Origin: Elusimicrobia bacterium CG_4_9_14_3_um_filter_62_55
Lineage (GTDB): Bacteria > Elusimicrobiota > Elusimicrobia > UBA1565
Assembly (NCBI GenBank): GCA_002790095.1
Contig: PFUL01000016.1
Span: 1-42,105, forward strand
DNA length: 42,105 bases
Reading direction: 5' to 3'
The notes beneath the pieces are model-generated. The model was not told the origin of the DNA and did no database searches. It saw only the letters and a list, made by a program, of their open reading frames with translations. A program made the position numbers and the translations under genes. Below are positions 17,980-31,532 of the stretch, piece by piece (within the stretch, counting starts at the first letter, position 1; each line of letters starts with the position of its first letter).

Positions 17980-19200
17980 ATGTCATCACCGCTCCGGCTC
18001 CGACGTCTGAAATCCGCCTACCTTTCCGCCTACGCGGGACTGCCCAAAACGATCTGGCTTTTGTCGGCCACCGTCTTCGTCAATCGCGCCGGCACGATGG
18101 TGATGCCGTTCATGACGCTCTACCTCACCCGGGAGCGCGGTCTCAGCGTGCACGCGGCGGGAGGAGCCCTCGCGCTCTTCGGCCTCGGCGCGATGTGCGG
18201 CGCGTACTTTGGGGGCCGGGTCGCGGACCGGATCGGCCCGCGCTGGGTGATGATCGCGAGCCTGCTGGCGACCGGCGTCGGATTTCAGGTCTTCGCGTTT
18301 CTTTCCGAGCCGAAAGCCATCGTGCCCGCGATGTTCGTTCTGGCGTTTCTCATGGAAAGCTACCGTCCCGCTGCCTCCACCGCGCTGGGGCAGGTCACCA
18401 CTCCCCCGGTGCGCGCGCGTTCATTCGTGCTGATGCGCCTTGCGGCGAATCTCGGAATGACCATCGGCCCCGCTCTCGGCGGCTTTCTCGCGGTGCGCGA
18501 CTACCGGTGGCTGTTCATCGTCGACGGCGCCACCTGCGCGGTTGCCGCGGGTCTGTTATGGTTCTTCCTCAGCGACGCGTTGGAGACCTCAGCCCGCGCC
18601 GCTCGCGAATCGGCCAAACGCCCCGGACAGCGGCGTCCGCTCAAGGACGGCCCGTTCCTAGCGTTCTGCGGGCTGAAGCTGTTTCAGGCGATGGTGTTCT
18701 TCCAGCTGTTCTCGACCTGGCCGCTGTACTTCCGAAACGAGTACGGCTACCGGGAAGACGGCATCGGCGCGTTCTTCGCGCTCAACGGGTTGTGCATCGT
18801 ATTCTTCGAGATGCAGATCGTGCGCGCGCTCGAGCGCGTCGACCGGATGAAGCTGATCGGTTTCGGCGCGCTGATGATCTGCGCGGGATTCGGCCTGATG
18901 CCGTGGGGGGATTCCCGCGCCTGGGCGGTGCTGACGGTCTTGGTGTGGACGTTCGGCGAGATGATCGCCATGCCGATTTCGATGGCGGTCGTCGCCGACC
19001 GGGCGAGCGACGCGCACCGCGGCGCCTACATGGCGACCATCGCCATGACCTTCTCGCTCGCCTACATCCTCGCGCCGCTGGTCGGAACGGCCCTCTACGA
19101 ACACGTCGGGCCCGACGCGGTGTGGCACGCGATCGCGGTGCTGGGAATCGCGTTGTTCTTCGGTTTCCGCCGCCTCTCGCCGCTGCTCCGGCCCGACTAA
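17980..19200 (+). CDS. Major facilitator superfamily transporter (drug-efflux-like)
   Basis: 406 aa with about twelve hydrophobic helices. MFS motif A between TM2 and TM3 reads GGRVADRIGPRW. TM1 has ATVFVNRAGTMVMPFMTLYL, as in MdtH/YfcJ-like proton antiporters, and TM5 carries LGMTIGPALGGFL (motif C-like). It probably exports a small molecule from the cytoplasm using the proton gradient; substrate unknown. The start at 17980 follows an AT-rich stretch with TATTTT eight bases upstream. Its stop overlaps that of the convergent MscS-type gene by four bases. Confidence 0.85.
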   Translation: MSSPLRLRRLKSAYLSAYAGLPKTIWLLSATVFVNRAGTMVMPFMTLYLTRERGLSVHAAGGALALFGLGAMCGAYFGGRVADRIGPRWVMIASLLATGVGFQVFAFLSEPKAIVPAMFVLAFLMESYRPAASTALGQVTTPPVRARSFVLMRLAANLGMTIGPALGGFLAVRDYRWLFIVDGATCAVAAGLLWFFLSDALETSARAARESAKRPGQRRPLKDGPFLAFCGLKLFQAMVFFQLFSTWPLYFRNEYGYREDGIGAFFALNGLCIVFFEMQIVRALERVDRMKLIGFGALMICAGFGLMPWGDSRAWAVLTVLVWTFGEMIAMPISMAVVADRASDAHRGAYMATIAMTFSLAYILAPLVGTALYEHVGPDAVWHAIAVLGIALFFGFRRLSPLLRPD

Positions 19201-20315
19201 CCCGCCTTCACCGCCTCTCCCGAACCCGCCAAATGCACCGTCTGCGTCGGAAAAGCGAACTGCAAGCCGGCCTTATGCACTTCCCGCGCGATGTTCAGGA
19301 AGAAGCGCTCTTTCACCGTCAGGTACTCCCCCCACTGGGTCGTCTTCGTAAAGCAGTAGATGAAGATGTCCAACGAGGAAGGGCCGAAGCCGTCGAAATT
19401 GACCAGAAAGAATTCGTCGCGCAGCCCTTCGTCGGAGCGGATCAGTCCGCGAATCGTCTCGACCAGCGCCTCGATCTGCTCGGGCGTCGTGTCGTAGGTG
19501 ACGCCGATCTTCGTGGAGATCCGGCGCTTCTGCATCCGCGACCAGTTGTTGATCGCGCTCGTCGTCCACTTCGCGTTGGGGACCGTAATCAAACTATTGG
19601 CGAAAGTCCGCACGCGGGTGGTTCTAAGACCGATCTCCTCGATCGTCCCTTCCAGCCCGTTCATCTCGATCCAGTCCCCGACCTTGAACGGGCGGTCGAG
19701 CAGGATGACGATCGATCCGAAGATGTTCGAGAGGCTCTCCTTCGCGGCCAAGGCGACCGCCATGCCTCCGAGCCCGAAGCCGGCGAGCAGCCCGCTGACG
19801 GAATAGCCCATGTTCTGCAGCGCGAGAATGCCGCCGACGATCACTAAGAACGACTTCAGAGACTTGCTCACGATCGGCACGAGAATGTCGTCGATCGAGG
19901 ACTCGGTTCGCTTGGCGTACCCGGCCCAAACCTTGCACGTCCCGTCGATGAAGCGCAGACCCAGCCAGACGATGAACACGATGCTGACGGTTTTAAACGC
20001 GGCGCTCAAAACCGCCGCCGCGTCGACCGGCGTCTTCGGCAACGGCAGGGTGCGGACGGCCAAATAGATTCCCAGGGGGACGCAGGCTGCGGCGAGCGGC
20101 TTGCGGACGATTTCCAGCAGCAAGTCGTCGTAAATCGTTGTCGTTCGTTTGACGGCCGCTTCCAATCCCTCGAACGCCCGTTCGAGGATTTTTCTCAGCA
20201 GGAATCCCGCGAAGATGAACCCCAGCGCGACGAGCGCTTGGCCCATCGTGATGCTGAAAAACTCAAACTTTAAAACCGCGAGGATCGTCTTCTCGAAGGC
20301 CTGAATCTGTTCCAT
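19197..20315 (-). CDS. MscS-family mechanosensitive ion channel
   Basis: 372 aa. Four or so N-terminal TM helices are followed by the pore helix and conserved MscS middle domain: GLLAGFGLGGMAVALAAKES (TM3 glycine/alanine packing), then NIFGSIVILLDRPFKVGDWI and GLEGTIEEIGLRTTRVRTF, and PNAKWTTSAINNWSR. It resembles the YbdG/YnaI or plant MSL type more than E. coli MscS (286 aa). It releases solutes on hypo-osmotic shock across the inner membrane. The ATG at 20315 follows TAAACT by exactly six bases. It lies downstream of the Hsp90-like operon on the same strand but has its own promoter. Confidence 0.92.
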   Translation of the reverse strand: MEQIQAFEKTILAVLKFEFFSITMGQALVALGFIFAGFLLRKILERAFEGLEAAVKRTTTIYDDLLLEIVRKPLAAACVPLGIYLAVRTLPLPKTPVDAAAVLSAAFKTVSIVFIVWLGLRFIDGTCKVWAGYAKRTESSIDDILVPIVSKSLKSFLVIVGGILALQNMGYSVSGLLAGFGLGGMAVALAAKESLSNIFGSIVILLDRPFKVGDWIEMNGLEGTIEEIGLRTTRVRTFANSLITVPNAKWTTSAINNWSRMQKRRISTKIGVTYDTTPEQIEALVETIRGLIRSDEGLRDEFFLVNFDGFGPSSLDIFIYCFTKTTQWGEYLTVKERFFLNIAREVHKAGLQFAFPTQTVHLAGSGEAVKAG

Positions 20316-20327
20316 ACGCCCAGTTTA
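20316..20327 (-). promoter_or_regulatory. Leaderless -10 promoter of the MscS-type gene
   Basis: TAAACT (20327-20322), then GGGCGT, then the ATG at 20315. The 33-base gap to the upstream gene end contains no other feature. Confidence 0.5.
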
Positions 20328-20348
20328 GCGAATTGACGGCGAACGAGG

Positions 20349-21686
20349 CTACCAAGCCCGTTCGGGCAATTGCGTGACGTCGATGGGGACGCGCTTGCCG
20401 ACCCGGCGCAGCCACGCGGCGTCGCGCCGGGTCAGAGCCCAGACGATCCAATCGGCCCGCGTGTGCGCGGAGCGCCGCTTGGTCGAAAACCGGATGCGGG
20501 GTCCCCGATCTTCGCGCAGAAGCCGCTCCAGACTTACCGGACGGCCGCGCACATCGAAGATCAACGGCGCCCGCCACAGCGCCCGCTCGAAGGACTCCAA
20601 AGGCTCCCGCGAATATCCGCGGCTCAGCGTTTCGGTCACCAGGCGCAGCCAGGAAGTCACGCGCGCGTCGACGTGTACGCGCAGACGCTTGGACAACGGC
20701 GCGTTCCACGGCAGCCACGAACGCTCCGGTTCCCCGTCGTTGGTCGAGTCGAAATCAAAAAGGCGCTTCCATTCCTTTCGGAGGCGCTGACTGCCGACCA
20801 GCATCTTGCCGGTCCCGGCTGCGCGGCGCGTCAACTCCTTCGCGCAGTGGGCGAGGAATCTCCCGTAATGCCGCTGGAGCTCGGCCAACCCCGCGTTGAG
20901 CGCCGCGTTCGCGACCACCTTCGTCAACGACGCATTGAGGCCGAACCCGTCGTCGTTGATCGCCCCGTCGAACGGCAATCCGGCTCCGGGTGCCTCGTGA
21001 TCGCAGACCCGCACGCCGAAGACAAACAATCCCAGCCGGTTCTTGCCGGTACATCCCGGTTCCGGTACGGTGATCACACCGCGCACCGTTCCGGACGCGA
21101 AGCGATAGGAATTCCAGTCCGGTATCGGTTCCTGCGGCAGCGGATTTCCGTTAAGGGTAAGCCGACCGGGAACCAAGGCGCACTCGCGCGCGAAAAATTC
21201 CGCCGTCAACGACTCCGTCACCATCGACCGCGGCCAATGCGGTAAAAGACGCACGCGGATGGAGGTTCTTGCGCTCTCCGGGCAGGGCGAGACTTCGTCT
21301 TCCGCGAGTCCGGAACTTTTCAGGGACCGCCCTCCCGAGGAGACCGTCACCTTCATCGCGCCGGAGCGCCACGCCCACAGCATGCCGAGCGCGAAATGAC
21401 GGTCGCGTTCTCCGAATTTCCCGGATCGCTCGAAGAGAGCCCCGTAGGGGTCGTGCATCGCCGCCTTTTCGAAGGGGGCCCCGCCGAAGTCCAGGCGCAA
21501 ATCCCGTCCCGAGGCCCGCACCTCGATTTCCCTCGCCCCCCCGGCGACCGCCGTGCGGATCCACGCCAGAAAGCCGCGCTCGCCACCGGGGAGTTGATAG
21601 CGCTGCAGCTTGTCGAGAGTGCGCCGCCGGTCGATCCGAAAACTTCCGGTTTCGACCAACTCCCCTTTCAAGGGATCGCCGCTCAA
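20349..21686 (-). CDS. Degenerate Hsp90-like (GHKL-fold) protein, smaller paralog
   Basis: 445 aa. The first 115 residues align by eye with the ATP-binding domain of the Hsp90-like protein at 24239-25984. SFRIDRRRTLDKL (15-27) matches the Hsp90 N-terminal strand/helix. FLAWIRTAVAGG (39-50) replaces the N-box, with Glu and Asn changed to Ala and Thr. LDFGGAP replaces the D-x-G-x-G loop and loses the second Gly; ALGML replaces the GxxGxG lid motif. It therefore probably does not hydrolyse ATP. The start is TTG (21686), overlapping the stop of a 37-aa ORF (TTGA). It is the last gene of the operon. The C-terminal 300 residues match nothing I recognise. Confidence 0.65.
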   Translation of the reverse strand: MSGDPLKGELVETGSFRIDRRRTLDKLQRYQLPGGERGFLAWIRTAVAGGAREIEVRASGRDLRLDFGGAPFEKAAMHDPYGALFERSGKFGERDRHFALGMLWAWRSGAMKVTVSSGGRSLKSSGLAEDEVSPCPESARTSIRVRLLPHWPRSMVTESLTAEFFARECALVPGRLTLNGNPLPQEPIPDWNSYRFASGTVRGVITVPEPGCTGKNRLGLFVFGVRVCDHEAPGAGLPFDGAINDDGFGLNASLTKVVANAALNAGLAELQRHYGRFLAHCAKELTRRAAGTGKMLVGSQRLRKEWKRLFDFDSTNDGEPERSWLPWNAPLSKRLRVHVDARVTSWLRLVTETLSRGYSREPLESFERALWRAPLIFDVRGRPVSLERLLREDRGPRIRFSTKRRSAHTRADWIVWALTRRDAAWLRRVGKRVPIDVTQLPERAW

Positions 21687-21796
21687 GGCTGCCTCTTGAG
21701 AGCCTGTTCGACGATCGCGCGCTTGCGGTCGATGCGAAAGGCGCCTTCTTCAACGAGCACGCCGTCTTCGTCGGCGTCTCTAGATCGGCGGGTCAC
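21683..21796 (-). pseudogene. 37-aa ORF, probable remnant of a third Hsp90-like paralog
   Basis: GTG at 21796 lies inside the end of the 819-aa gene; the stop at 21683-21685 overlaps the TTG of the next gene. The 37-residue product contains VLVEEGAFRIDRKRAIVEQ, closely matching LVETGSFRIDRRRTLDKL of the downstream paralog and AGRFKVDRTRALEKL of the upstream one. Only the first strand and helix of the domain remain. It may be a decayed paralog whose reading frame still couples translation of its neighbours, or a real micropeptide. Nucleotide identity to the neighbour is low, so any duplication is old. Confidence 0.5.
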
Positions 21797-24239
21797 GGCG
21801 GTATTCCCCCTTTTCGTCGGCTTCCAAGACCAACTCCGCGAGCGACAACGAAAAGCACGCGTCCTGAACGTCGGTCAACTCGCGCACCCTGCGATTTAAG
21901 TCGGAAAAGCAAACCGAGACCGCATACGGCATCAAGCGCATCAAATTCCCGCGCTCGCCGAGGAAGCGCAGAAGGGGGTGGCGCGGGTCGAACGCGACGC
22001 TGTCGATGGATTCGTCGGTCAACGGACACGCCCCCCGCCCCTTCAGGGCCTTCAGCCAGCGGCGCACCTCTCCCGTCGGATCGGAGGCGACGAGATCCTC
22101 GACGCCGTGCGTCTCTACGGCACGACGCATCTCCGGGGGGAGACTCAGTTCCCCTTCTTTTTTGGGTTCTATTTTCTCGGCGGACTCAAGACGCGGGGCC
22201 GGCGTCCGTTTCGGCATCGGGGCAGGGGGCTCTTCGCGGCGCTCCCGCCGGATCCCCGCGACCAGTTTCGACCCTTCGAAGAGAAGTTTGATGTGGTCGG
22301 GATACCCGATCGCCAAGCTCTGGAGGGCCTTCGGATGCGCGGAAGGCTCGACGATGATTTTCCGGCCCGCATGGCAGGCGGCGTTCAGATCGCGGATCGA
22401 TAGGAACCGCTCGTCCGAGTCGAGAAAGAGTCCCAGACCCGCGAGCCAGGAGAAGCTCGGCCAGATTTCGGGTTCCGCTTTCCAATAGGATCGGAGAAAA
22501 TCGAGAAGATGCTCCCGAATCATGGCCTGGCGCGGCGACCGCTCCTCGGGCCGGTAGTCCTGCGCGAGCCGCTCATAAAGAGCGGGAACGCCGGAGGCCG
22601 CCGCGGCCAAACACTCCGCCGCGGGCGCCTCGACCTTTCCGGGAAGCGCGACCTGACTCAACTGAGGATGATGGAGCGCCGCCTCGATCCGCAGCCCCCG
22701 CATATCCCAGCGCGATCGTCCGATGGAGCGAATGTGGTTGAACCATTGAATCCGGGACTCGCGCGGGTGCGGCGAGATCGACAACCCGATTTCCCCCGCC
22801 ACCGGGCCGGCGAGAATCGCCTGCTTGATCAAGAGATTCTCCTGGTCGAGTACGGCGTCGGTTTTTACCGGCGCGGCGATTTCCTGCGGAGACAGCGCGC
22901 GCACGTTGTCTTCGCCGAAAAACAGCTTAAGAAACGCGAGATCCGCCGGATGACAGATCCAGGCGGCGCGATGGGTCGCGAAGGGCGCGGCGGAGAGCCG
23001 CCCGACGAACGGGATCGTGGTCAGCCAGCGCGCCTGCTCGCGCAAGGCCCTGAGCGTCAGGGGACGCCCCGCCTCATCGAAGAGAATCGGCGCGTCCCAA
23101 AGCAGCTGCCCAATTCCCCGCTCATCGCGCGTCATCGATATTCGGTGGTAAAGGCACGCGGCCCGCAGCGCGGCAACGCGCAGGGAAGTTTCCCGCAGCA
23201 GCGAGGCCTTGCGCTTCTCCACCTCGCCGCCCGATTCGACGAGATCGGTGAACTTATCCGTAAGCGACCATCCCTCCCAATGCAGCCAGTGGCGCCGCAA
23301 TTCCTCCCGCGCGAGCATCTTTCCCGCCGGGCCCGACGCCGCAGCGACCTTGCGCAAACTTTCCTTCAATAGAGCCACCGACTCCGAACGAATCGCCGCG
23401 AGAGCGGCTTCGTATCGTTCGTCCTTTACGATCTCGATTTGGGACAGGCTCTTGCGCAAACCGTCGTCGCGCACGAATCCCGTGACGGGCACGCCCGGCA
23501 TTTGCACCCGTTCGCGGAGCACCGTGACGCCCCGAACCACGAAGTCGATCGTCCCGCCGCCGAGAGCCTCGGGGGAAAGGCCGAGCGTCCCCGTGAGTTC
23601 TCCGCGGCCGAAGCGCTTCGAGTCCACGAGATCCGTTTCCGCGCTTTGGACGACGCTGTGGCGCCTTCCGTTCTTATGAATGGTGATCGGAATCGGACAA
23701 CGCCCGCAGAAGGCGTTCAAATGCGCCTCGGTCGCTTTGAATCCGCCGACGCGGCCGACCCAGAGCGCAACGACCGGATTCCCGCCGTAGCGCGTTCGCG
23801 CGTCCTCAAGCGGACTCCCTTCCAATTCGCGCAAGCGCTCTTCCGTCGGCCCGTCCACGTAAAGCGCGAATTCCTTGCCGCCGGAGCGAACGCGCACCGT
23901 GATCCCTTTCGGGTCAAGGCGCAGCGCAGAGAGCAGTCCCACGGCGAGTTCGCGGTTGCGCGCCCGCGTGCCGCGGGGGTCGGAGTCGAACAGGTGATGG
24001 TAGGGATCGCGCAGTTCCTCGGGGTCCCATTCCCTTCCGTCGAAAACGAACTCGAATCCCGCGGGGGTCGTCGAAACGTCGATCCGGGCGGCGCCGCCGG
24101 CCACGGCCGCCTGCACCCACGGAAGCGCGAACATCGTCGCGTCTTTAAGCTGAAAACGCATCAGCTTCTCGAGCGCGCGGGTCCGATCGACTTTAAAGCG
24201 CCCGGCCGATACGAACTCCCCCGCGTCCTCGGGCGGCAT
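21780..24239 (-). CDS. Large degenerate Hsp90-like (GHKL-fold) protein
   Basis: 819 aa from the ATG at 24239, which overlaps the upstream stop as ATGA. Residues 14-105 align by eye with the neighbouring Hsp90-like ATPase: RFKVDRTRALEKL (14-26), WVQAAVAGGAARIDV (41-55) in place of the N-box, FVFDGREWDPEEL in place of the D-x-G-x-G loop, and RELAVGLLSAL in place of the lid glycines. The Mg-binding Glu/Asn and the loop Asp/Gly are lost, so ATPase activity is unlikely. About 700 further residues are mainly alpha/beta with a basic Pro-rich linker (about 680-720) and no domain I recognise. It probably acts as a structural or regulatory partner. Confidence 0.65.
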   Translation of the reverse strand: MPPEDAGEFVSAGRFKVDRTRALEKLMRFQLKDATMFALPWVQAAVAGGAARIDVSTTPAGFEFVFDGREWDPEELRDPYHHLFDSDPRGTRARNRELAVGLLSALRLDPKGITVRVRSGGKEFALYVDGPTEERLRELEGSPLEDARTRYGGNPVVALWVGRVGGFKATEAHLNAFCGRCPIPITIHKNGRRHSVVQSAETDLVDSKRFGRGELTGTLGLSPEALGGGTIDFVVRGVTVLRERVQMPGVPVTGFVRDDGLRKSLSQIEIVKDERYEAALAAIRSESVALLKESLRKVAAASGPAGKMLAREELRRHWLHWEGWSLTDKFTDLVESGGEVEKRKASLLRETSLRVAALRAACLYHRISMTRDERGIGQLLWDAPILFDEAGRPLTLRALREQARWLTTIPFVGRLSAAPFATHRAAWICHPADLAFLKLFFGEDNVRALSPQEIAAPVKTDAVLDQENLLIKQAILAGPVAGEIGLSISPHPRESRIQWFNHIRSIGRSRWDMRGLRIEAALHHPQLSQVALPGKVEAPAAECLAAAASGVPALYERLAQDYRPEERSPRQAMIREHLLDFLRSYWKAEPEIWPSFSWLAGLGLFLDSDERFLSIRDLNAACHAGRKIIVEPSAHPKALQSLAIGYPDHIKLLFEGSKLVAGIRRERREEPPAPMPKRTPAPRLESAEKIEPKKEGELSLPPEMRRAVETHGVEDLVASDPTGEVRRWLKALKGRGACPLTDESIDSVAFDPRHPLLRFLGERGNLMRLMPYAVSVCFSDLNRRVRELTDVQDACFSLSLAELVLEADEKGEYRRDPPI

Positions 24240-25984
24240 CAGGACGCCCTTTCCGAGTCGAGTTCCAGAGCCCCTTCCAACAGCTTCCCTTCGACCTTCT
24301 CCGCGAGGTTGGAATACTCGCCCTCGCGTTCCGGAGGGACCTCTCCGTCGTGCAGGTGCATCATCTTCAGGCAGAGGAAGGCCGCGAACCCGGGGCGGGC
24401 CGCGTGCAGGCGCGCGAATTTCTCGGCGGACGGATGGGAAATATTGAGCACCGCCCAACGCCGGGTCCGAAAAACAAACAAAGAGGAGACCGGCTTTTCA
24501 TCGACGGGACTCATCTCCCCGGCCTCCCGCTGGGTGACGAACAATTTCCCCCGGATCGGCGATCCTGGATAGGCGAGGTCGGCCGCGGCGATCCCCCGGT
24601 ACTTGGATCCGGATTTTCGGTCGAGTTCCCGAAGCGTGTTCAAAAACGCGCGCATGCCCGACGCCAATTTCTGATCCGGGCTGAGCACCGGAAGAATCAA
24701 AGATTTCGAGGCGTGCACCGCGTCGACGCCGAGCCACTCCGCGACCGCCTCCACCCAAGGCCCTTCGCACAGCAAAACGGCGCCTTCCTTTTCGAGCCGC
24801 TGCGTCACGCGGCTGCGGCAGGAATCGAAGTAGAGCTTCTTGCCGGGCGCGCAGCGCACGCCGTCTTTGAGTTCCTCGAGACTGACGGTCTCCCCGCAGA
24901 GACCCGGAAAGATTCTCCAGTCCGACCGGCGCCAGCGGGACCAGTAGGTCGACAGCAGCCAATGGAGAAACGGAAGGCGCCGCGTCCACTCCTCGACCGC
25001 CTTCTGCGCTTCGAGGCCCATCCCCTCGGGAAGCCCGTCGCCGTCTGGAGTGCGCTGCAAAGCGATCTTGGAAATCCGCGTGGAAAGCTCCTTGAGTTCA
25101 AAACGGAGTTTCTCGGGGAGTCGGTTCTCGACGAGCTTCTCGAGAATCCCCATCAGCTTGCGGTAATTCTCGTCCTCCATCACGCTGTCGCGGGTGAGGG
25201 TATGCTCGAGGTAGCGGGATTTCGCCTTGAAGGAAACGCCGCGGAAGTAGTCGTGGCTCCCTTCTTTCAGCGTCAGTCCGCGGTTGTAGAAGCCGAAAAA
25301 GGGCTTATCCGCCGCCGAAAACGCAAGCCGAAGCTCCGTCCCCTCCTCCGTGTACGCCAAGGAAGCCCCCGCGAGTCCAAACGGCTCGCTCAGCGCCTCG
25401 GGCCGCTGATCGCCGACGCGGTAAAAAATCCGGGCTTCGGAGTGCTTGCACCAATAGAGGATGGTTTCTCGGGCTTCCCGACCCAGCTTCTCAAAATCCG
25501 CTTCGCTCTGCTTCTTGCGGATTTCGATCATCGTACCTTCGCGCGCCGAGGAAAGCTTGTATTTCTCGTAGCGCCGGTAGCTCGGAAAATCCACGCGCCA
25601 ACTCTCTCCGTTTCGCGCGGTCAGCACGCGAACCAATTCCGGGCGCAGCGAAAAGACAGAGACGAAGCCGATTCCGAACTTGCCGATTTTGGTAAAATCC
25701 TCCTCCTTCGTCGAACGGAACAGCACGAGCAGAAAGTTGTCGATGATGTACTCGTCCATCCCTTCGCCGTCGTCCTCGATCCGGATGACCGTGTCCCCTT
25801 CCCCCCGCTCGATGGTGACGTCGATGCGGTTGGAGCCGGCGTCGATCGCGTTCTGGATCAATTCGCGGAAGAAATCGAGCGGACGATCAAACTGATCGAC
25901 GAGATCCTTGACGAGGCTCGGAACCGAGGAGGCGGGAGCGCCCGAGCGGCGTTCCTTGCGCGGGCGGACGCGACGCTCAGCCAT
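24239..25984 (-). CDS. Hsp90-like GHKL ATPase
   Basis: 581 aa. A basic N-terminus is followed by an intact Hsp90-type ATP-binding domain: N-box FFRELIQNAIDAG (38-50, Glu41, Asn45, Asp48), G1 loop EDDGEGMDEY (70-79) and G2 lid GKFGIGFVSVF (101-111). The middle region (about 150-330) resembles the Hsp90 middle domain in order (DSVMEDENYRKLMGILEKL recalls the client-binding section). It is shorter than HtpG (about 620-630 aa) and lacks an obvious HtpG C-terminal dimer domain, so it is not the housekeeping chaperone. The ATG overlaps the AAA+ gene stop by eight bases, indicating translational coupling. Confidence 0.82.
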   Translation of the reverse strand: MAERRVRPRKERRSGAPASSVPSLVKDLVDQFDRPLDFFRELIQNAIDAGSNRIDVTIERGEGDTVIRIEDDGEGMDEYIIDNFLLVLFRSTKEEDFTKIGKFGIGFVSVFSLRPELVRVLTARNGESWRVDFPSYRRYEKYKLSSAREGTMIEIRKKQSEADFEKLGREARETILYWCKHSEARIFYRVGDQRPEALSEPFGLAGASLAYTEEGTELRLAFSAADKPFFGFYNRGLTLKEGSHDYFRGVSFKAKSRYLEHTLTRDSVMEDENYRKLMGILEKLVENRLPEKLRFELKELSTRISKIALQRTPDGDGLPEGMGLEAQKAVEEWTRRLPFLHWLLSTYWSRWRRSDWRIFPGLCGETVSLEELKDGVRCAPGKKLYFDSCRSRVTQRLEKEGAVLLCEGPWVEAVAEWLGVDAVHASKSLILPVLSPDQKLASGMRAFLNTLRELDRKSGSKYRGIAAADLAYPGSPIRGKLFVTQREAGEMSPVDEKPVSSLFVFRTRRWAVLNISHPSAEKFARLHAARPGFAAFLCLKMMHLHDGEVPPEREGEYSNLAEKVEGKLLEGALELDSERAS

Positions 25985-27566
25985 CGGAACGCCCCGCCGC
26001 GCTTTGAATCACCGCGGCCCGCTGGGCCGAGAGGTGCAGCTTGATTTCCTCGACGCGCCTTCGGAAGCGCTCCTCCTCGCTCTTTTCCTGCGCCCCCTTC
26101 TCGAATGCCAGGTGGTCGCTTAAGAACCCCTGGATCCTCTTGTCGTCGACTTTCACCGAAAGCTCCGCCACGAGTTTCCGCTTCTCCTCGAACGGCAGGC
26201 TGAAGTATTCGTCGGGTTCGTCGAAATCCTCGATCGCGGTCAACACCCGGCCGGCGATCGCGTCCACCGAACGGCCCGAAAGCCCCTCTTCGACGCAGCG
26301 CTTTCCGATCTTCTTCCACTGGGATTCCGTGATCGGCAGCCACGCCTGCTTTCCGCGCAGCTTGATGTCCCGCAGCAGCCGAACGAAATGCTCGGGGGTG
26401 GTCGGGCCCTTCGCCTGAAGCGGGGTCTGGGCCAATCGGCTGATCATCGCCTCGTCCATGTGCATCGTATTCGCGTCGCAGATGAGAAACCACTTCCCGT
26501 TTTTGGGTCCGACGGTTCCGTCGAGAATCCCGAACAGCGTCCCCAGATTGGACTTCTCCTCCTGACGCAGCTGCGAGTCGCCGCGCGCCGAGAACGCCGT
26601 ATCGATGTCGGCCCAATAAACCCCGACCACCGCGGGGGCGTTGAAGACTTCGTCGCGGAAGATTTCCAAGAGCCGGTTCGCGCTTTGGTTCTGATACGAT
26701 GAGGCCCAATCGGTGCGCCGGATGATGCGGGTTTTCGCGGGCAGTTGGTGGCGTTCGCACAATTCGAGGAAATAGCGCATGACCGCGTGGGCGGTGACCG
26801 TCTTCCCGCAGCCCGGAGAGCCCAGCACGAACAGGATCTGGTTGCGGACCTTCTTCGGGTTCTGATCGAGCGTCATGTCGAACCCGGCGACGTCCCGCGC
26901 AAGACGCTTGGCGGCCTTCAGATACTCCTCATTGCCGACGATGTCGTCCAACGCCACCGGCATCAGGTTGTTGGATTCCCCGATCTCGGCGGGCGAGACC
27001 GCCCATCCGTCGTAGCGCTGACGCGGAGTGGTCAGTTTGACCTCGAGCTTGTCCGCCCCGAGTTTCTTAAGCGTCGCGGCGAGCAGCGCGCAGTACGAGC
27101 GCAGGCACTGCAGCGCCTCCGCGTCGCGGCTCACCCGCTTTCTCGAATCCGGATGCTCCCCGTAGAACTTTAAAAATCCGGCGCAGTCGCGCAGGATCGT
27201 CGAAAAAAGCCCCTCCGGGGAAGTCAGCTTCGGGATGTCCCGGTACTGGTCGGCGCGAAGCGAACCGTCGGGTCCCTCGGGTTTCTCCGGTCCGCCGATC
27301 GCCAGCAGGCGGTCGGTCGCTTCCGCCGCGAAGACATAGGCGAAAAACACGGGTCCCGCCGCCTCCAAGCGCGGCAGCCGCATCGCCGCGACGGCCGTGG
27401 CGACCGCGAACACCAGCGCGTCGAGCGACTCCAGATTCAACGGCGTCGTCCCGAACGAGCCCGCGTCGACTCGGGCCAAAATCGCCGGCAGTCCGCTCGT
27501 GCGAACGCGGGCGCGCGCTTCGGCGATTTCCCTCTCCACTTCCTTTTCTTCGAGTGCCGCGTTCAT
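25977..27566 (-). CDS. AAA+ ATPase with altered Walker B
   Basis: 529 aa. Residues 1-200 form a helical N-terminal domain I do not recognise. The AAA+ module starts at DDIVGNEEYLKAAKRLA (about 207-223) and has Walker A GSPGCGKT (249-256). Where related FtsH/VPS4-type proteins have D-E-x-D, it reads ADID (319-322), so the Mg-binding Asp and catalytic Glu appear as Ala and Asp. It continues with LFGILDG (344-350), Asn366 (sensor 1 position) and an arginine-finger-like ISRL (Arg377). A charged helical tail (about 460-529) ends the chain. The start at 27566 is set by an ATGA overlap with the upstream gene; longer frames lack support. It is probably a remodelling ATPase working with the Hsp90-like proteins. 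Confidence 0.82.
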   Translation of the reverse strand: MNAALEEKEVEREIAEARARVRTSGLPAILARVDAGSFGTTPLNLESLDALVFAVATAVAAMRLPRLEAAGPVFFAYVFAAEATDRLLAIGGPEKPEGPDGSLRADQYRDIPKLTSPEGLFSTILRDCAGFLKFYGEHPDSRKRVSRDAEALQCLRSYCALLAATLKKLGADKLEVKLTTPRQRYDGWAVSPAEIGESNNLMPVALDDIVGNEEYLKAAKRLARDVAGFDMTLDQNPKKVRNQILFVLGSPGCGKTVTAHAVMRYFLELCERHQLPAKTRIIRRTDWASSYQNQSANRLLEIFRDEVFNAPAVVGVYWADIDTAFSARGDSQLRQEEKSNLGTLFGILDGTVGPKNGKWFLICDANTMHMDEAMISRLAQTPLQAKGPTTPEHFVRLLRDIKLRGKQAWLPITESQWKKIGKRCVEEGLSGRSVDAIAGRVLTAIEDFDEPDEYFSLPFEEKRKLVAELSVKVDDKRIQGFLSDHLAFEKGAQEKSEEERFRRRVEEIKLHLSAQRAAVIQSAAGRSDG

Positions 27567-28576
27567 ATCGAATAGATGACGTTCTTCGTGCCGGCCTTCT
27601 TGAGCTTCGCCTGAAGCGGCCCCAGCGCCGATTTCGTGCACGCGAACTTTCTCTCCTTGTGGACTCTGTATCCGTAGCGCTGCGCCGCCTCCTCGATGAT
27701 CGGCCGAGCCTTATCGGAGAGGAAGTCGACGTACAGCGTCGAAAAAGGGTCGTTGTCCAAATCGATTTCATGCCCCGTCGACGCACGGTCGAGCGGACAA
27801 TGCAGCACAAAGGCGTCCGAGGCGTCGGGCGGAAACCACCCTTGCGGCGCGGGCGTCCACGGCGACCACAACGGTCCGATGCGCCCCCGGGCCACTTCCT
27901 CCACGTGAATCCCCTCGAGGCGTCCAAGAAGCAGGAACATGATCTCGCTCTCGTCCTGGGCGAATTTCTCCATCGCGGACCGGAAGGTGTTGGTCTGCTT
28001 CGTGTAGTCCCCGGTGCGCTCCAAAAATCCGCCGCCCCACATCGAATCGGTCTGCTCGATCAGAAGCGTGTACCGGACGAACACGCCCTCTCCCGGATCA
28101 AAACGGTCGAAGACGACTTCGAAGGCGGCCGAGCCTCGCTCGGGATAGACTCGGCGCAGTTTGACCTGAAGATCGGTCATCGGCACGGCCGGCACCTTCA
28201 CGAGCTCCCGGTAGTAGCGAAGCTTGGCCTCGACGCGCGGCGTCAACCGCCGCCCGAGCGCGAGCCGCGCCTCCTGCTGCGCGATGAATTCTTCCGCGAT
28301 CTGCCGATCCACCTGCACCGTCAGCACGTCCTGATGGCGCGGGAGACCGTTCGTCCGGTCGATCCCCACGCCGTCGTAAACGCCGGAACGGATCGAAGGC
28401 GCCAAGAAGCGAAGCCGATCCGAGCAGCCGAACGGATCCGGATACCACTTGTTAAGCCGGGCCGCGAGGATCAGATCCGAGACCCGTCTCGCGTACGCCT
28501 CCAGCGCCTCGGAATCGAGCGTCAGATAGCGGTTTTGAGGCGGTTTCCCCTTGGTCGCGACCGCCTCACGGCTCAT
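27563..28576 (-). CDS. Unrecognised 337-aa operon protein
   Basis: 337 aa; I do not recognise the family. It is soluble, with no signal peptide or TM helix. The N-terminal third is helical (ALEAYARRVSDLILAARLNKW), the middle is rich in charged and beta-prone residues (FEVVFDRFDPGEGVFVRYTL), and the C-terminal part has Trp/Pro-rich turns (LWSPWTPAPQGWFPPDASD) then a basic end. The ATG lies inside the end of the coiled-coil gene (11-base overlap) and its stop overlaps the AAA+ start. Tight coupling to both suggests it is a fixed component of the same complex. Confidence 0.75.
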   Translation of the reverse strand: MSREAVATKGKPPQNRYLTLDSEALEAYARRVSDLILAARLNKWYPDPFGCSDRLRFLAPSIRSGVYDGVGIDRTNGLPRHQDVLTVQVDRQIAEEFIAQQEARLALGRRLTPRVEAKLRYYRELVKVPAVPMTDLQVKLRRVYPERGSAAFEVVFDRFDPGEGVFVRYTLLIEQTDSMWGGGFLERTGDYTKQTNTFRSAMEKFAQDESEIMFLLLGRLEGIHVEEVARGRIGPLWSPWTPAPQGWFPPDASDAFVLHCPLDRASTGHEIDLDNDPFSTLYVDFLSDKARPIIEEAAQRYGYRVHKERKFACTKSALGPLQAKLKKAGTKNVIYSI

Positions 28577-29639
28577 CGGTGCGGGCGGTTTCGAATTGGC
28601 CGTACTCCTTCTTAGCCATTTCGATTGTTTCGTTGATGCGTTCCTCCTTGATCTCCCGCTCCGCCGCGAGATTTTGGGCGACGAGATCCTCGGTCTGTTT
28701 GTCGTAGATCTTCATTTCCGAGGTCAGCCGGTCGATGTTCTGCGTAAGATACAGCGAGGTCTCCGAGGCGAGCACCGCGAGGCGATTGACGCTCTGCTTC
28801 AGAGACTGCATCGACTTGTGCATCTCAACCGAAAGCTCTCCGGCCGCGGAGATCGAGGAAAGGCCGGCCAGATTCCCGTGCAGTTCGTTGAGCACCTCGT
28901 TGCCGGCGTCATAGAGCGTCTGCATGTTGCCGTGCAGATTCGTCATGATCTCGAGGAAGTTGTTGTTCATGTTGATGATCGCCATCAACCGATCCTCGGC
29001 GTTGGCGTACAAGCGCAGTTTCGCGCCGTGCTCCCAAATCGCCCGTTTGACGTCGGAAATCTTCGCCGACAATTCGCGCCCTTCCAGACTCTTCGGATCG
29101 GCGAGGCCCTGCAATTGGGCCTCGAGCTTCTCGCGGAAGGACTCCAGCTCCAAGACGTATTTAGCCGCCCGCTCCTCGTTCTGAGCGGCGACGACCATCT
29201 TCTTGTTGAGACGGACGATGTCTTCCTGAAGGTTTTTGATGTCGTTTTGCAGGGTGTCGATGTAGTTGCCGACTTCCTGCACCCGTTTCTGGGCGATCTC
29301 GATCTTCTCGTTGAGCAGCTCTTTGAGATCCCGGCTCGGAGCGATGTCCCGGATCAGCGGAATCTTCGCGAGCAGGCCCTTGATGTTGGTGCCGATCTCG
29401 TCGAGCGTCATGATGTTGCCGAGGTATTCGAGCGCCGACTTATTTTCGGCGATGTCGGCCGTCATCTCCGTCGAGAGCTTGTCGTAGGCCTTGGAGAGTT
29501 CGCCGAACTTCTTGAGATTGACCTCGTGGCGGCTCTGGTTGTCGGTGAGCATCGACTCCAGCCCTTGGCGCGTATAGCCTTCGCCGTCGTACTTGATCTC
29601 TTTGCTGAGGATGTCCGACTTGGCGTTTTCTTCGGCCAT
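28566..29639 (-). CDS. Coiled-coil protein, faintly TelA-like, first gene of the operon
   Basis: 357 aa, almost entirely helical with long heptad-like charged runs and no membrane segment. Some blocks recall the toxic-anion-resistance protein TelA family: AKIPLIRDIAPSRDLKELL, then repeated helices near IDTLQNDIKNLQEDIVRLN, and MAIINMNNNFLEIMTNLHGN resembling the TelA Asn-Asn element. The likeness is weak, and a generic scaffold coiled coil is the alternative. TelA-type proteins are known neighbours of AAA+ and stress-response genes. The ATG is preceded by AGGAGG about eight bases upstream and by a sigma70-like promoter. Confidence 0.6.
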   Translation of the reverse strand: MAEENAKSDILSKEIKYDGEGYTRQGLESMLTDNQSRHEVNLKKFGELSKAYDKLSTEMTADIAENKSALEYLGNIMTLDEIGTNIKGLLAKIPLIRDIAPSRDLKELLNEKIEIAQKRVQEVGNYIDTLQNDIKNLQEDIVRLNKKMVVAAQNEERAAKYVLELESFREKLEAQLQGLADPKSLEGRELSAKISDVKRAIWEHGAKLRLYANAEDRLMAIINMNNNFLEIMTNLHGNMQTLYDAGNEVLNELHGNLAGLSSISAAGELSVEMHKSMQSLKQSVNRLAVLASETSLYLTQNIDRLTSEMKIYDKQTEDLVAQNLAAEREIKEERINETIEMAKKEYGQFETARTDEP

Positions 29640-29684
29640 GAGCCCGCCTCCTATTAGTTGCCCCGAAAGGTGTCTACCCGCGCT

Positions 29685-29713
29685 AGTATAAGGTCTCCCT
29701 ACGCGCCGCGCAA
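29685..29713 (-). promoter_or_regulatory. Sigma70-like promoter of the Hsp90-like operon
   Basis: On the minus strand TTGCGC (29713-29708), a 17-base spacer and TATACT (29690-29685) lie about 46 bases before the ATG at 29639. A strong Shine-Dalgarno follows. Unlike most promoters in the window it gives a leader, implying conventional ribosome loading for the whole operon. Confidence 0.6.
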
Positions 29714-29781: not shown

Positions 29782-30954
29782 ATGCAAATTGAGAATGTTG
29801 AAATTCGAAATTATCGTTCCTTCCAATCTGCGGAACTGAAGGATCTTTCTCGCCTCGCGATCGTTGTCGGCGCCAACGGCACAGGGAAGTCGACTCTATT
29901 TGATGTCCTCAGCTTTCTAAAGGACTCCCTGACCAATAACGTCGCTACCGCGGTTTCCAGGCGGGGCGGGTTCAAAGAACTCGTCACCCGCGGGGAAACT
30001 GGTCCCGTCGGAATTACCGTTAAGTTTCGCGAGAGCAGCGGTCGGCTGGCCACCTACCAGCTCGATGTCTCGGAATCAGAAGGTCGTCCTGTTGTCGAAA
30101 GGGAAATCCTCCGATTTCGAAGAGGTCAATACGGACAACCATGGCATTTCGTTGATTTTTCACTGGGCAAAGGAACCGCCATCACCAACGAGAGCGCGTA
30201 TGGTCTTGAAGGAGCTCAGGCGGAACGAAAGGAGCATGTTCTTGATGATGCCAGCACCTTAGCGATCAAAGGTTTAGGGCAGTTTAAGGAGTTTCGAGTT
30301 GTCGCTGAATTTAGGAGCCTAATTGAAAATTGGCATATCTCCGACTTTCACATTGGTGACGCTCGAACCAGCGGCGAGGCAGGGTATGCCGAACATCTCT
30401 CAACGCGGGGAGATAATATCGCGCAATTTGCCCAATACCTCTTTGAAAACCATCCGGAGAGATTCAATAAAGTCCTGAATGCAATGAAATCTCGAGTGCC
30501 GGGCGTCCGAAGCGTGGAGGCAAAGACCACGGAAGACGGCAGGCTCGTCCTACGGTTTCAGGACGGCAGCTTTAAAGACCCTTTCATCGCCCGATTCGTT
30601 TCTGATGGAACGATCAAGATGTTTGCGTATCTGTTGCTCCTATTCGATCCGCAACCACACCCCTTGCTCGCTATCGAGGAACCGGAGAATCAACTTTATC
30701 CCGAACTGTTGCGCGAGTTGATAGAGGAATTTCGTGATTATGCCCGGCGCGGAGGACAGGTTTTTGTTTCCACGCATTCCCCGGATTTTTTGAGTGGAGC
30801 AACGCTTGATGAAATTTATTGGCTTGTCAAAAATGACGGGTTCACTAAAATTCGTCGCGCATCAGAAAGCGAACTCCTAAGGAACTTGGTCGCAGAGGGA
30901 GACTCCCCCGGAGCACTCTGGAAACAAGGATTATTTGAAGGCGCCCACCCTTGA
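29782..30954 (+). CDS. RecF/OLD-like AAA (ABC-type) ATPase
   Basis: 390 aa. Walker A GANGTGKST (30-38) follows MQIENVEIRNYRSF, the usual start of SMC/RecF-like ATPases. An ABC signature-like FVSDGTIKMFAYLL is near 272-285, Walker B LLAIEEPENQLYPELL is at 295-310 (Glu299/Glu300), and the His switch is STHSP (His332). No TOPRIM domain is fused to it; the following gene supplies one. Visibly lower GC than its neighbours (a sampled 60-base line gave about 53%), suggesting transfer. Its stop overlaps the next start (TTGA). Split OLD-type ATPase/nuclease pairs are known in phage defence, which is the likeliest role. Confidence 0.85.
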   Translation: MQIENVEIRNYRSFQSAELKDLSRLAIVVGANGTGKSTLFDVLSFLKDSLTNNVATAVSRRGGFKELVTRGETGPVGITVKFRESSGRLATYQLDVSESEGRPVVEREILRFRRGQYGQPWHFVDFSLGKGTAITNESAYGLEGAQAERKEHVLDDASTLAIKGLGQFKEFRVVAEFRSLIENWHISDFHIGDARTSGEAGYAEHLSTRGDNIAQFAQYLFENHPERFNKVLNAMKSRVPGVRSVEAKTTEDGRLVLRFQDGSFKDPFIARFVSDGTIKMFAYLLLLFDPQPHPLLAIEEPENQLYPELLRELIEEFRDYARRGGQVFVSTHSPDFLSGATLDEIYWLVKNDGFTKIRRASESELLRNLVAEGDSPGALWKQGLFEGAHP

Positions 30955-31532
30955 CGAGAAGAATTGTTTTTCTCCTCGAAGAAAGATCGATGAAGTTCTT
31001 CCTCGAAGGACTTCTTCCGCGGATATTTCCTGGGACAAGACTAAATGAATCTTTCATTTGTGTAACGCATGAAGGGAAACAGGACCTCGAGAGAAGCCTT
31101 CCACGAAAACTACGCGCGTGGAACCATCCTGATGTCTTCATAATCATTCGCGACCAAGATACTGAAGATTGTCAGGCACTCAAGGAGCGCTTGTTTGATC
31201 TTTGCAAAACGGGCGGCAAACCGGATTCAATCGTTCGAATCGCCTGCCGAGAATTAGAAGCTTGGTATTTGGGAGATCCCGATGCGTTAGCTGCTGCGTT
31301 TGAGAACCCCGCACTCTCTACCATCGGGGATAAGGCACGGTATCGAGACCCTGACACAGTTGCGACTCCCTCCCGTGAATTGTCTCGACTGGAACCCAAA
31401 TTCCAAAAGCTTTCCGGTGCGAGATTAATGGCAACCCATATCTCGAGAGAAAATAATCGTTCCAATAGCTTTAGGGTTCTCTTGGATACGATTCGAAGGA
31501 TTGTAGAATCACCCAAAGCAAACTGTGACTAG
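30951..31532 (+). CDS. DUF4276 family protein, TOPRIM-like partner of the upstream ATPase
   Basis: 193 aa. It begins IVFLLEERSMKFFLEGLLPR and continues with HEGKQDLERSLPRKLRAW, then FIIIRDQDTEDC and VRIACRELEAWYLGDP, all typical of DUF4276. The acidic residues Glu10/Glu11, Asp68, Asp70 and Asp73 fit a TOPRIM-like metal site, and Glu101/Glu103 lie in the conserved RELEAW motif. A nuclease role is inferred from the fold, not shown. The start is TTG at 30951, overlapping the ATPase stop; no other in-frame start fits as well. Same low-GC style as its partner. Confidence 0.82.
   Translation: MTRRIVFLLEERSMKFFLEGLLPRIFPGTRLNESFICVTHEGKQDLERSLPRKLRAWNHPDVFIIIRDQDTEDCQALKERLFDLCKTGGKPDSIVRIACRELEAWYLGDPDALAAAFENPALSTIGDKARYRDPDTVATPSRELSRLEPKFQKLSGARLMATHISRENNRSNSFRVLLDTIRRIVESPKANCD

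Follow-up and report, generated by a model that had tools for sequence, protein, structure and literature searches.

A conserved bacterial operon combining an Hsp90-like ATPase and degenerate Hsp90-like paralogues with a AAA+ ATPase and two unrecognised protein families

Several of the described systems closest to the locus reported here are built around Hsp90-type ATPases, namely the Hsp90 family itself (HtpG, Grp94, TRAP1), sacsin, and the eukaryotic R2TP–Hsp90 system, which combines RuvBL1/2 and Hsp90 with adaptors. In this study, we explored a six-gene operon, A to F, in a window of 42,105 nucleotides (the whole stretch of DNA analysed) from an Elusimicrobia bacterium. Its product D shares with the Hsp90 family an intact GHKL N-terminal domain of the Hsp90 type. 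As differences from the Hsp90 family and sacsin, D has a single N-domain, with likeness to Hsp90 found only in the N-terminal ~200 residues, and E and F are separate paralogues without the ATP residues. D resembles sacsin in passing the Pfam SACS cut-off (37.1 bits, cut-off 32.8) and that of the NCBIfam sacsin-type ATP-binding domain NF047352 (51.4 bits, cut-off 50), and the long E proteins of other phyla, single chains of about 1300–1800 aa, repeat Hsp90-middle-like segments as sacsin does. However, these repeats are partial, and D, E and F gave no J or HEPN match; a ubiquitin-like domain was likewise not matched in the operon proteins. The pairing of a AAA+ ATPase with an Hsp90-type ATPase recalls R2TP–Hsp90 as a functional analogy only, in that all 40 PDB sequences matched by the C profile at E <= 0.001 were classic AAA proteins (p97, NVL, NSF), with no RuvBL, and Pfam matched none of the TPR or PIH adaptor domains that are a feature of R2TP in A–F. 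Among anti-phage proteins, the PADLOC models of TmtA, MzaB, IetA and Mad8 give weak matches to D or C that cover the generic ATPase domain only and come without a corresponding defence-island context, and no single named PADLOC system has models that match all core proteins. It had been claimed at first pass that no named system holds exactly this gene set, and none was found in the libraries (Pfam, NCBIfam, PADLOC, PHROGs) or open-access papers searched; in the same libraries, neither B nor the coiled-coil protein A matched an already named system. A paper on conflict systems (eLife 2020, PMC7159879) contains no occurrence of Hsp90, HATPase or GHKL, and the passages considered of a paper on HEPN and sacsin (PMC3710099) describe no comparable operon. 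The system thus appears to be new in the sense of its gene set and of its absence from the libraries and open-access papers searched, as distinct from a proven function.

The operon runs on the minus strand from position 29639 to 20349, with the transcription order A, B, C, D, E, F. All six frames are open, and since relatives of the encoded proteins occur in other genomes, they look like real genes. The first-pass annotation had described an unfamiliar, translationally coupled six-gene operon, which is borne out, while several of its details needed revision. Of the overlaps given as 11, 4, 8 and 4 bases, the first three stand, with 11 bases between A and B, 4 bases (ATGA) between B and C and 8 bases between C and D, whereas D and E share one base (TGATG) rather than four. 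The TTGA join thought to link E to F does not involve E; it couples F to what is left of a third E-family gene, a relic of 25 codons (21760–21683, minus strand; VLVEEGAFRIDRKRAIVEQALKRQP followed by a stop; HMM score 17), the stop of which overlaps the TTG start of F. E and F are themselves separated by a gap of 93 bases, inside which this relic lies. The upstream GTG and TTG starts assigned to C and E were wrong, the longer C and E frames of the mechanical ORF list being over-extended: C starts with the ATG at 27566, and its M1 is invariant in 12 relatives, while E starts with the ATG at 24239, giving 819 aa. A is preceded by a good ribosome-binding site, AGGAGG (29652–29647, minus strand). 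The promoter implied farther upstream is present as a promoter-like pair, TTGCGC-17-TATACT (29713–29685, minus strand), but it is a weak match with 8 of 12 consensus positions and was absent from the output of a consensus promoter scan. At the other end of the operon, a gene for an MscS-like channel (19197–20315) lies on the same strand and starts only ~33 bases downstream of F; a terminator scan found none between the two (20315–20349), and the channel gene may be co-transcribed with the operon.

A, B, E and F gave no meaningful family match in Pfam, NCBIfam, PADLOC or PHROGs, Pfam returning for A coiled-coil-type noise only, and profile searches with A and with B yielded no credible solved relative. 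Gene A (28566–29639, minus strand) encodes an all-helical, coiled-coil protein of 357 aa. No other product of the operon is as conserved as A, relatives in the same phylum being 60–76% identical to A of the window. Its N-terminus carries the conserved motif QVxYDGExYxRExLE, probably lacks structure, and could be a docking peptide. TelA, a toxic-anion resistance protein to which the C-terminus of A had seemed similar, is not among the Pfam matches listed for A and its relatives. Gene B (27563–28576, minus strand) encodes a 337-aa protein of an unrecognised family. Its AlphaFold2 model is confident (pLDDT 88.4, pTM 0.87) and of alpha/beta type; it gave no Foldseek match at E <= 0.001 and no match in a viral library, and with a best VIA-align Z of only 4.7 no convincing known fold was obtained for B. 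The weak VIA-align matches include many T-fold enzymes, at Z of about 3–4.6 only, and the order of strands and helices in residues 149–266 fits the beta-beta-alpha-alpha-beta-beta unit of the T-fold at these same low scores, so that T-fold kinship may be taken as a lead only. Gene C (25977–27566, minus strand) encodes a AAA+ ATPase of 529 aa with an intact Walker A motif, GSPGCGKT, at residues 249–256. According to a by-eye alignment, its Walker B region reads YW(P/A)DID where D-E-I-D is usual, with D320, I321 and D322 invariant in 38 relatives; N366 and R377 are invariant as well. With this odd Walker B, P-D-I-D for D-E-I-D, C may hydrolyse ATP poorly. A simple hydropathy scan found no transmembrane segments in A–F.

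Gene D (24239–25984, minus strand) encodes the Hsp90-like GHKL ATPase of 581 aa. As first described, its GHKL motifs are intact, N-box, G1 and G2 included (E41..N45..D48, D71-G73-G75, G101-G104-G106, G150-T151), and N45, D48, D71, G73, G75, G101, G104, G106, G150 and T151 are invariant in 17 relatives. In L084 and L086, the Myxococcota members that have diverged most, the N-box Glu is missing. Beside SACS, D passes Pfam HATPase_c_3 and HATPase_c, and the best PDB match of the D profile is an Hsp90 (E 5e-10), with an alignment that spans about residues 1–207 of the profile only. In Myxococcota, D reaches up to seven matches per genome, many of them beside an E, and is often unlinked from A-B-C. 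A second Myxococcota clade of D (L178, L179, L180) has conserved neighbours of its own, of about 180, 290 and 1060 aa, without a Pfam family match.

The remaining two genes encode pseudo-Hsp90 proteins, E (21780–24239, minus strand; 819 aa, with a C-terminal extension) and its paralogue F (20349–21686, minus strand; 445 aa, TTG start). That they are degenerate Hsp90-like neighbours of D, as had been suspected, is confirmed by a profile–profile match to D (258 columns, probability 96.9%, E 1.5e-10), in which the N-box, G1 and G2 residues are replaced in E and F and the ATP-binding residues are lost. The E family is expanded far beyond the operon: the window's genome yields 11 matches, genome G304 17 and genome G301 21, one gene possibly giving two matches. 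Scattered copies are mostly standalone proteins of 280–560 aa adjoining unrelated genes, and are about 27–41% identical between genomes of one phylum, compared to 60–76% for A. In-frame stops occur in some copies, while others have hydrophobic N-termini, which probably span the membrane; no effector domain was recognised in scattered copies by eye and with E profiles. The further E/F-family genes of the window's genome lie on contigs C121, C111, C57, C19, C71, C110 and C113 (L193–L200), L198 showing a hydrophobic N-terminal region ahead of the E domain. One locus of G304 (L201, G304:C161) holds five E-family genes in tandem, most with a hydrophobic N-terminal half and the E domain at the C-terminus.

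A C profile scan of 84,980 species genomes gave 63 loci, of which 62 were counted as real and one (L093) was dropped for matching only the generic ATPase stretch. These loci are found in Elusimicrobiota, Vulcanimicrobiota (Eremiobacterota), Armatimonadota, Planctomycetota, Myxococcota and several unassigned lineages. The order A-B-C-D-E is kept in Elusimicrobiota (L037, L038, L041), Armatimonadota (L047), Planctomycetota (L065) and a Myxococcales genome (L090), and the Vulcanimicrobiota loci L053, L055 and L058 show A-B-C-D with no linked E; junctions overlap or nearly touch in conserved loci of several phyla. Gene order in distant genomes, which the first-pass annotation had named as a check, is therefore conserved across several phyla. 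Since several bacterial phyla share the core with its gene order unchanged, the operon is a real system and no quirk of a single genome, and the conservation of both sequence and order across phyla rules out chance.

All 18 C-bearing genomes tested carry one A and a B, and if C is on its own, the other two genes lie elsewhere in the genome, mutually adjacent in nearly all cases. In the window's phylum, 14 of 341 genomes have A, exactly those 14 have D and 13 of them have C, and E/F relatives occur in the same 14 and in G308, a 78%-complete genome congeneric with that of the window; these counts come from related and hence dependent genomes, with positives that span four families of the phylum in addition to several phyla. 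The missing A in G308 and the missing C in G326 may result from incomplete assemblies or from the single-sequence query. In the Nannocystis order, 25 of 29 species have A, with a single match in all but one (a fragmented assembly), and three of the four species without A also lack D. From this co-occurrence it is strongly supported that the products of A–F act together; they may also form one complex in a fixed ratio, as the first-pass annotation had suggested. It should be noted that A-B-C and D-E lie apart in some loci, and that in G326 (L213, G326:C37:7832-10597) D directly follows A, the locus lacking both B and C. L213 is a natural reduced form, and the gene set is consequently not strictly indivisible. 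In the tree of C, sequences cluster according to phylum, Elusimicrobiota forming a single clade (support 100/99), and none of 200 shuffles of the labels reached the observed degree of clustering. In close Vulcanimicrobiota pairs, dN/dS amounts to 0.02–0.06 for A–D, which are under strong purifying selection.

We propose, with a probability of roughly 45%, that the operon encodes a cytoplasmic ATP-driven machine for protein remodelling or assembly, the mechanism of which we infer as follows. A, B and C would constitute a slow-evolving single-copy core, with A as helical scaffold, B as adaptor and C as AAA+ ring motor, physically associated with D, an Hsp90-type clamp expected to close on ATP. 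E and F could then be partner protomers pairing with D or selectors of its clients, since they keep the Hsp90 fold and have lost the ATP-binding residues. The many scattered, fast-evolving E copies would link a single D to various clients or sites, and the expansion and rapid change of this family do fit a role in choosing client or place. In the last step, the AAA+ ring would remodel or assemble the client, and the N-terminal QVxYDGExYxRE of A is a candidate docking peptide for these interactions. The same gene order in several phyla, the co-occurrence of the genes, the low dN/dS, the profile matches to Hsp90 and AAA proteins, the D-like fold of E and F, the sacsin-like repeats of the long E proteins, the number and divergence of E copies and the lack of transmembrane segments in the hydropathy scan of A–F argue for such a machine; the G326 locus without B and C, the odd Walker B of C and the confinement of the Hsp90 likeness of D to its N-terminal part argue against it. 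A more specific version, in which one active Hsp90-type ATPase (D) is served by a large, fast-evolving family of scattered, ATP-dead E/F proteins that choose its clients, and works with an AAA+ core A-B-C, the scaffold and adaptor of which would represent undescribed families, is put forward tentatively.

The foremost alternative, though itself unlikely, is a recognition or conflict system, in which a conserved A–D core would signal through its ATPases when an expanded, fast-evolving E repertoire, partly tandem and partly membrane-anchored, senses invaders or rivals. The number of E-family matches in a single genome, the tandem array of five, the in-frame stops and the fast divergence would all suit such a repertoire, as would the TmtA models that match the N-terminal domain of D, and a HEC-01 defence cassette (29782–31532, divergent from the operon; AAA ATPase and DUF4276 protein, PADLOC E 3e-175 and 4e-61) adjoins the window's operon. 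From this cassette the first-pass annotation had derived a conflict or stress role, and it had suggested looking for defence islands. Neither the conflict role nor a defence-island setting found support, as HEC-01 was not found by tblastn in 12 related Elusimicrobiota loci, and the operon lies elsewhere mostly beside housekeeping genes (dnaG/rpoD, sucA-sucB-lpd for 2-oxoglutarate dehydrogenase, NADH-dehydrogenase-type genes, a pseudouridine synthase), the HEC-01 neighbour of the window being the exception. PADLOC matched only one of ten neighbours in related loci, a helicase-like protein, and its matches within the operon are limited to weak, generic ones for C and D. Neither B nor C matched a plasmid, B matched no phage and C no viral contig, so that a mobile element was rejected as well. 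Reading by eye and E profiles recognised no effector domain in the scattered E copies. Because the genes are phylum-clustered, near-universal in the Nannocystis order, under strong purifying selection and mostly flanked by housekeeping genes, the defence reading is unsupported, and a defence island is ruled out as the default interpretation. The linkage data bear on a second reading, which is also improbable, namely that D and E form a sacsin-like chaperone acting alone, while A-B-C are a separate machine merely sharing the operon. The multi-copy D of Myxococcota, often unlinked from A-B-C, and the loci in which A-B-C and D-E lie apart would be expected from such a separation, but it is at odds with the co-occurrence of A and D without exception in 341 genomes, the repeated A-B-C-D adjacency in distant phyla and the position of D directly after A in G326.

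The structure of A raises the question of a membrane or envelope machine, in which the AAA+ and Hsp90-like ATPases would act on A as a helical protein of the ClyA type. Its AlphaFold2 model, a long helical bundle, finds its best VIA-align matches in the ClyA superfamily of alpha-pore-forming proteins (AhlC, Z 15.2 over 233 residues at 2.6 A; XaxA, Z 15.2), and the hydrophobic N-termini of some E copies would agree with an envelope location. The model is of low confidence, however (mean pLDDT 67.6), helical bundles attain Z of 13–14 in VIA-align without kinship, and no 19-residue window of A exceeds 1.6 in hydropathy, a threshold at which shorter hydrophobic segments could still exist. Moreover, in contrast to the ClyA superfamily, A belongs to an ATPase operon and evolves very slowly, being far more conserved than expected of a toxin, which leaves this reading quite unlikely. 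The least probable is a signalling or regulatory module with D-E clamps as ATP-dependent switches under kinase control. It would draw on one Elusimicrobiota family, in which D-E is followed by a WD40/kinase-like and a kinase-like protein, and on kinase-like genes near several Myxococcota loci. Directly downstream kinase-like neighbours are confined to that one family, though, and a conserved receiver, phosphatase or DNA-binding partner is missing. Myxococcota genomes are rich in kinases, so that proximity there is weak evidence; the neighbours look as expected for such genomes, and a kinase association was discarded.

In the proposed remodelling or assembly machine, two core families have no recognised relative, and the multi-gene system, the genes of which are present or absent together almost without exception, is spread over several phyla and includes an expanded pseudo-Hsp90 family. 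Should the chaperone reading be correct, bacterial Hsp90 biology would be wider than HtpG, and pseudo-ATPase partners would represent a novel means by which a single Hsp90 serves many clients. The system is present in cultured Nannocystis and Plesiocystis, which renders it testable. As a minor observation, three proteins are encoded after D-E in L027 and L029: a helical one of 112 aa, a WD40 protein whose N-terminus is kinase-like, and another kinase-like protein. No relative of the helical protein was observed behind F in the window; relatives of 112–127 aa also follow E in L037, L040, L041 and L043.
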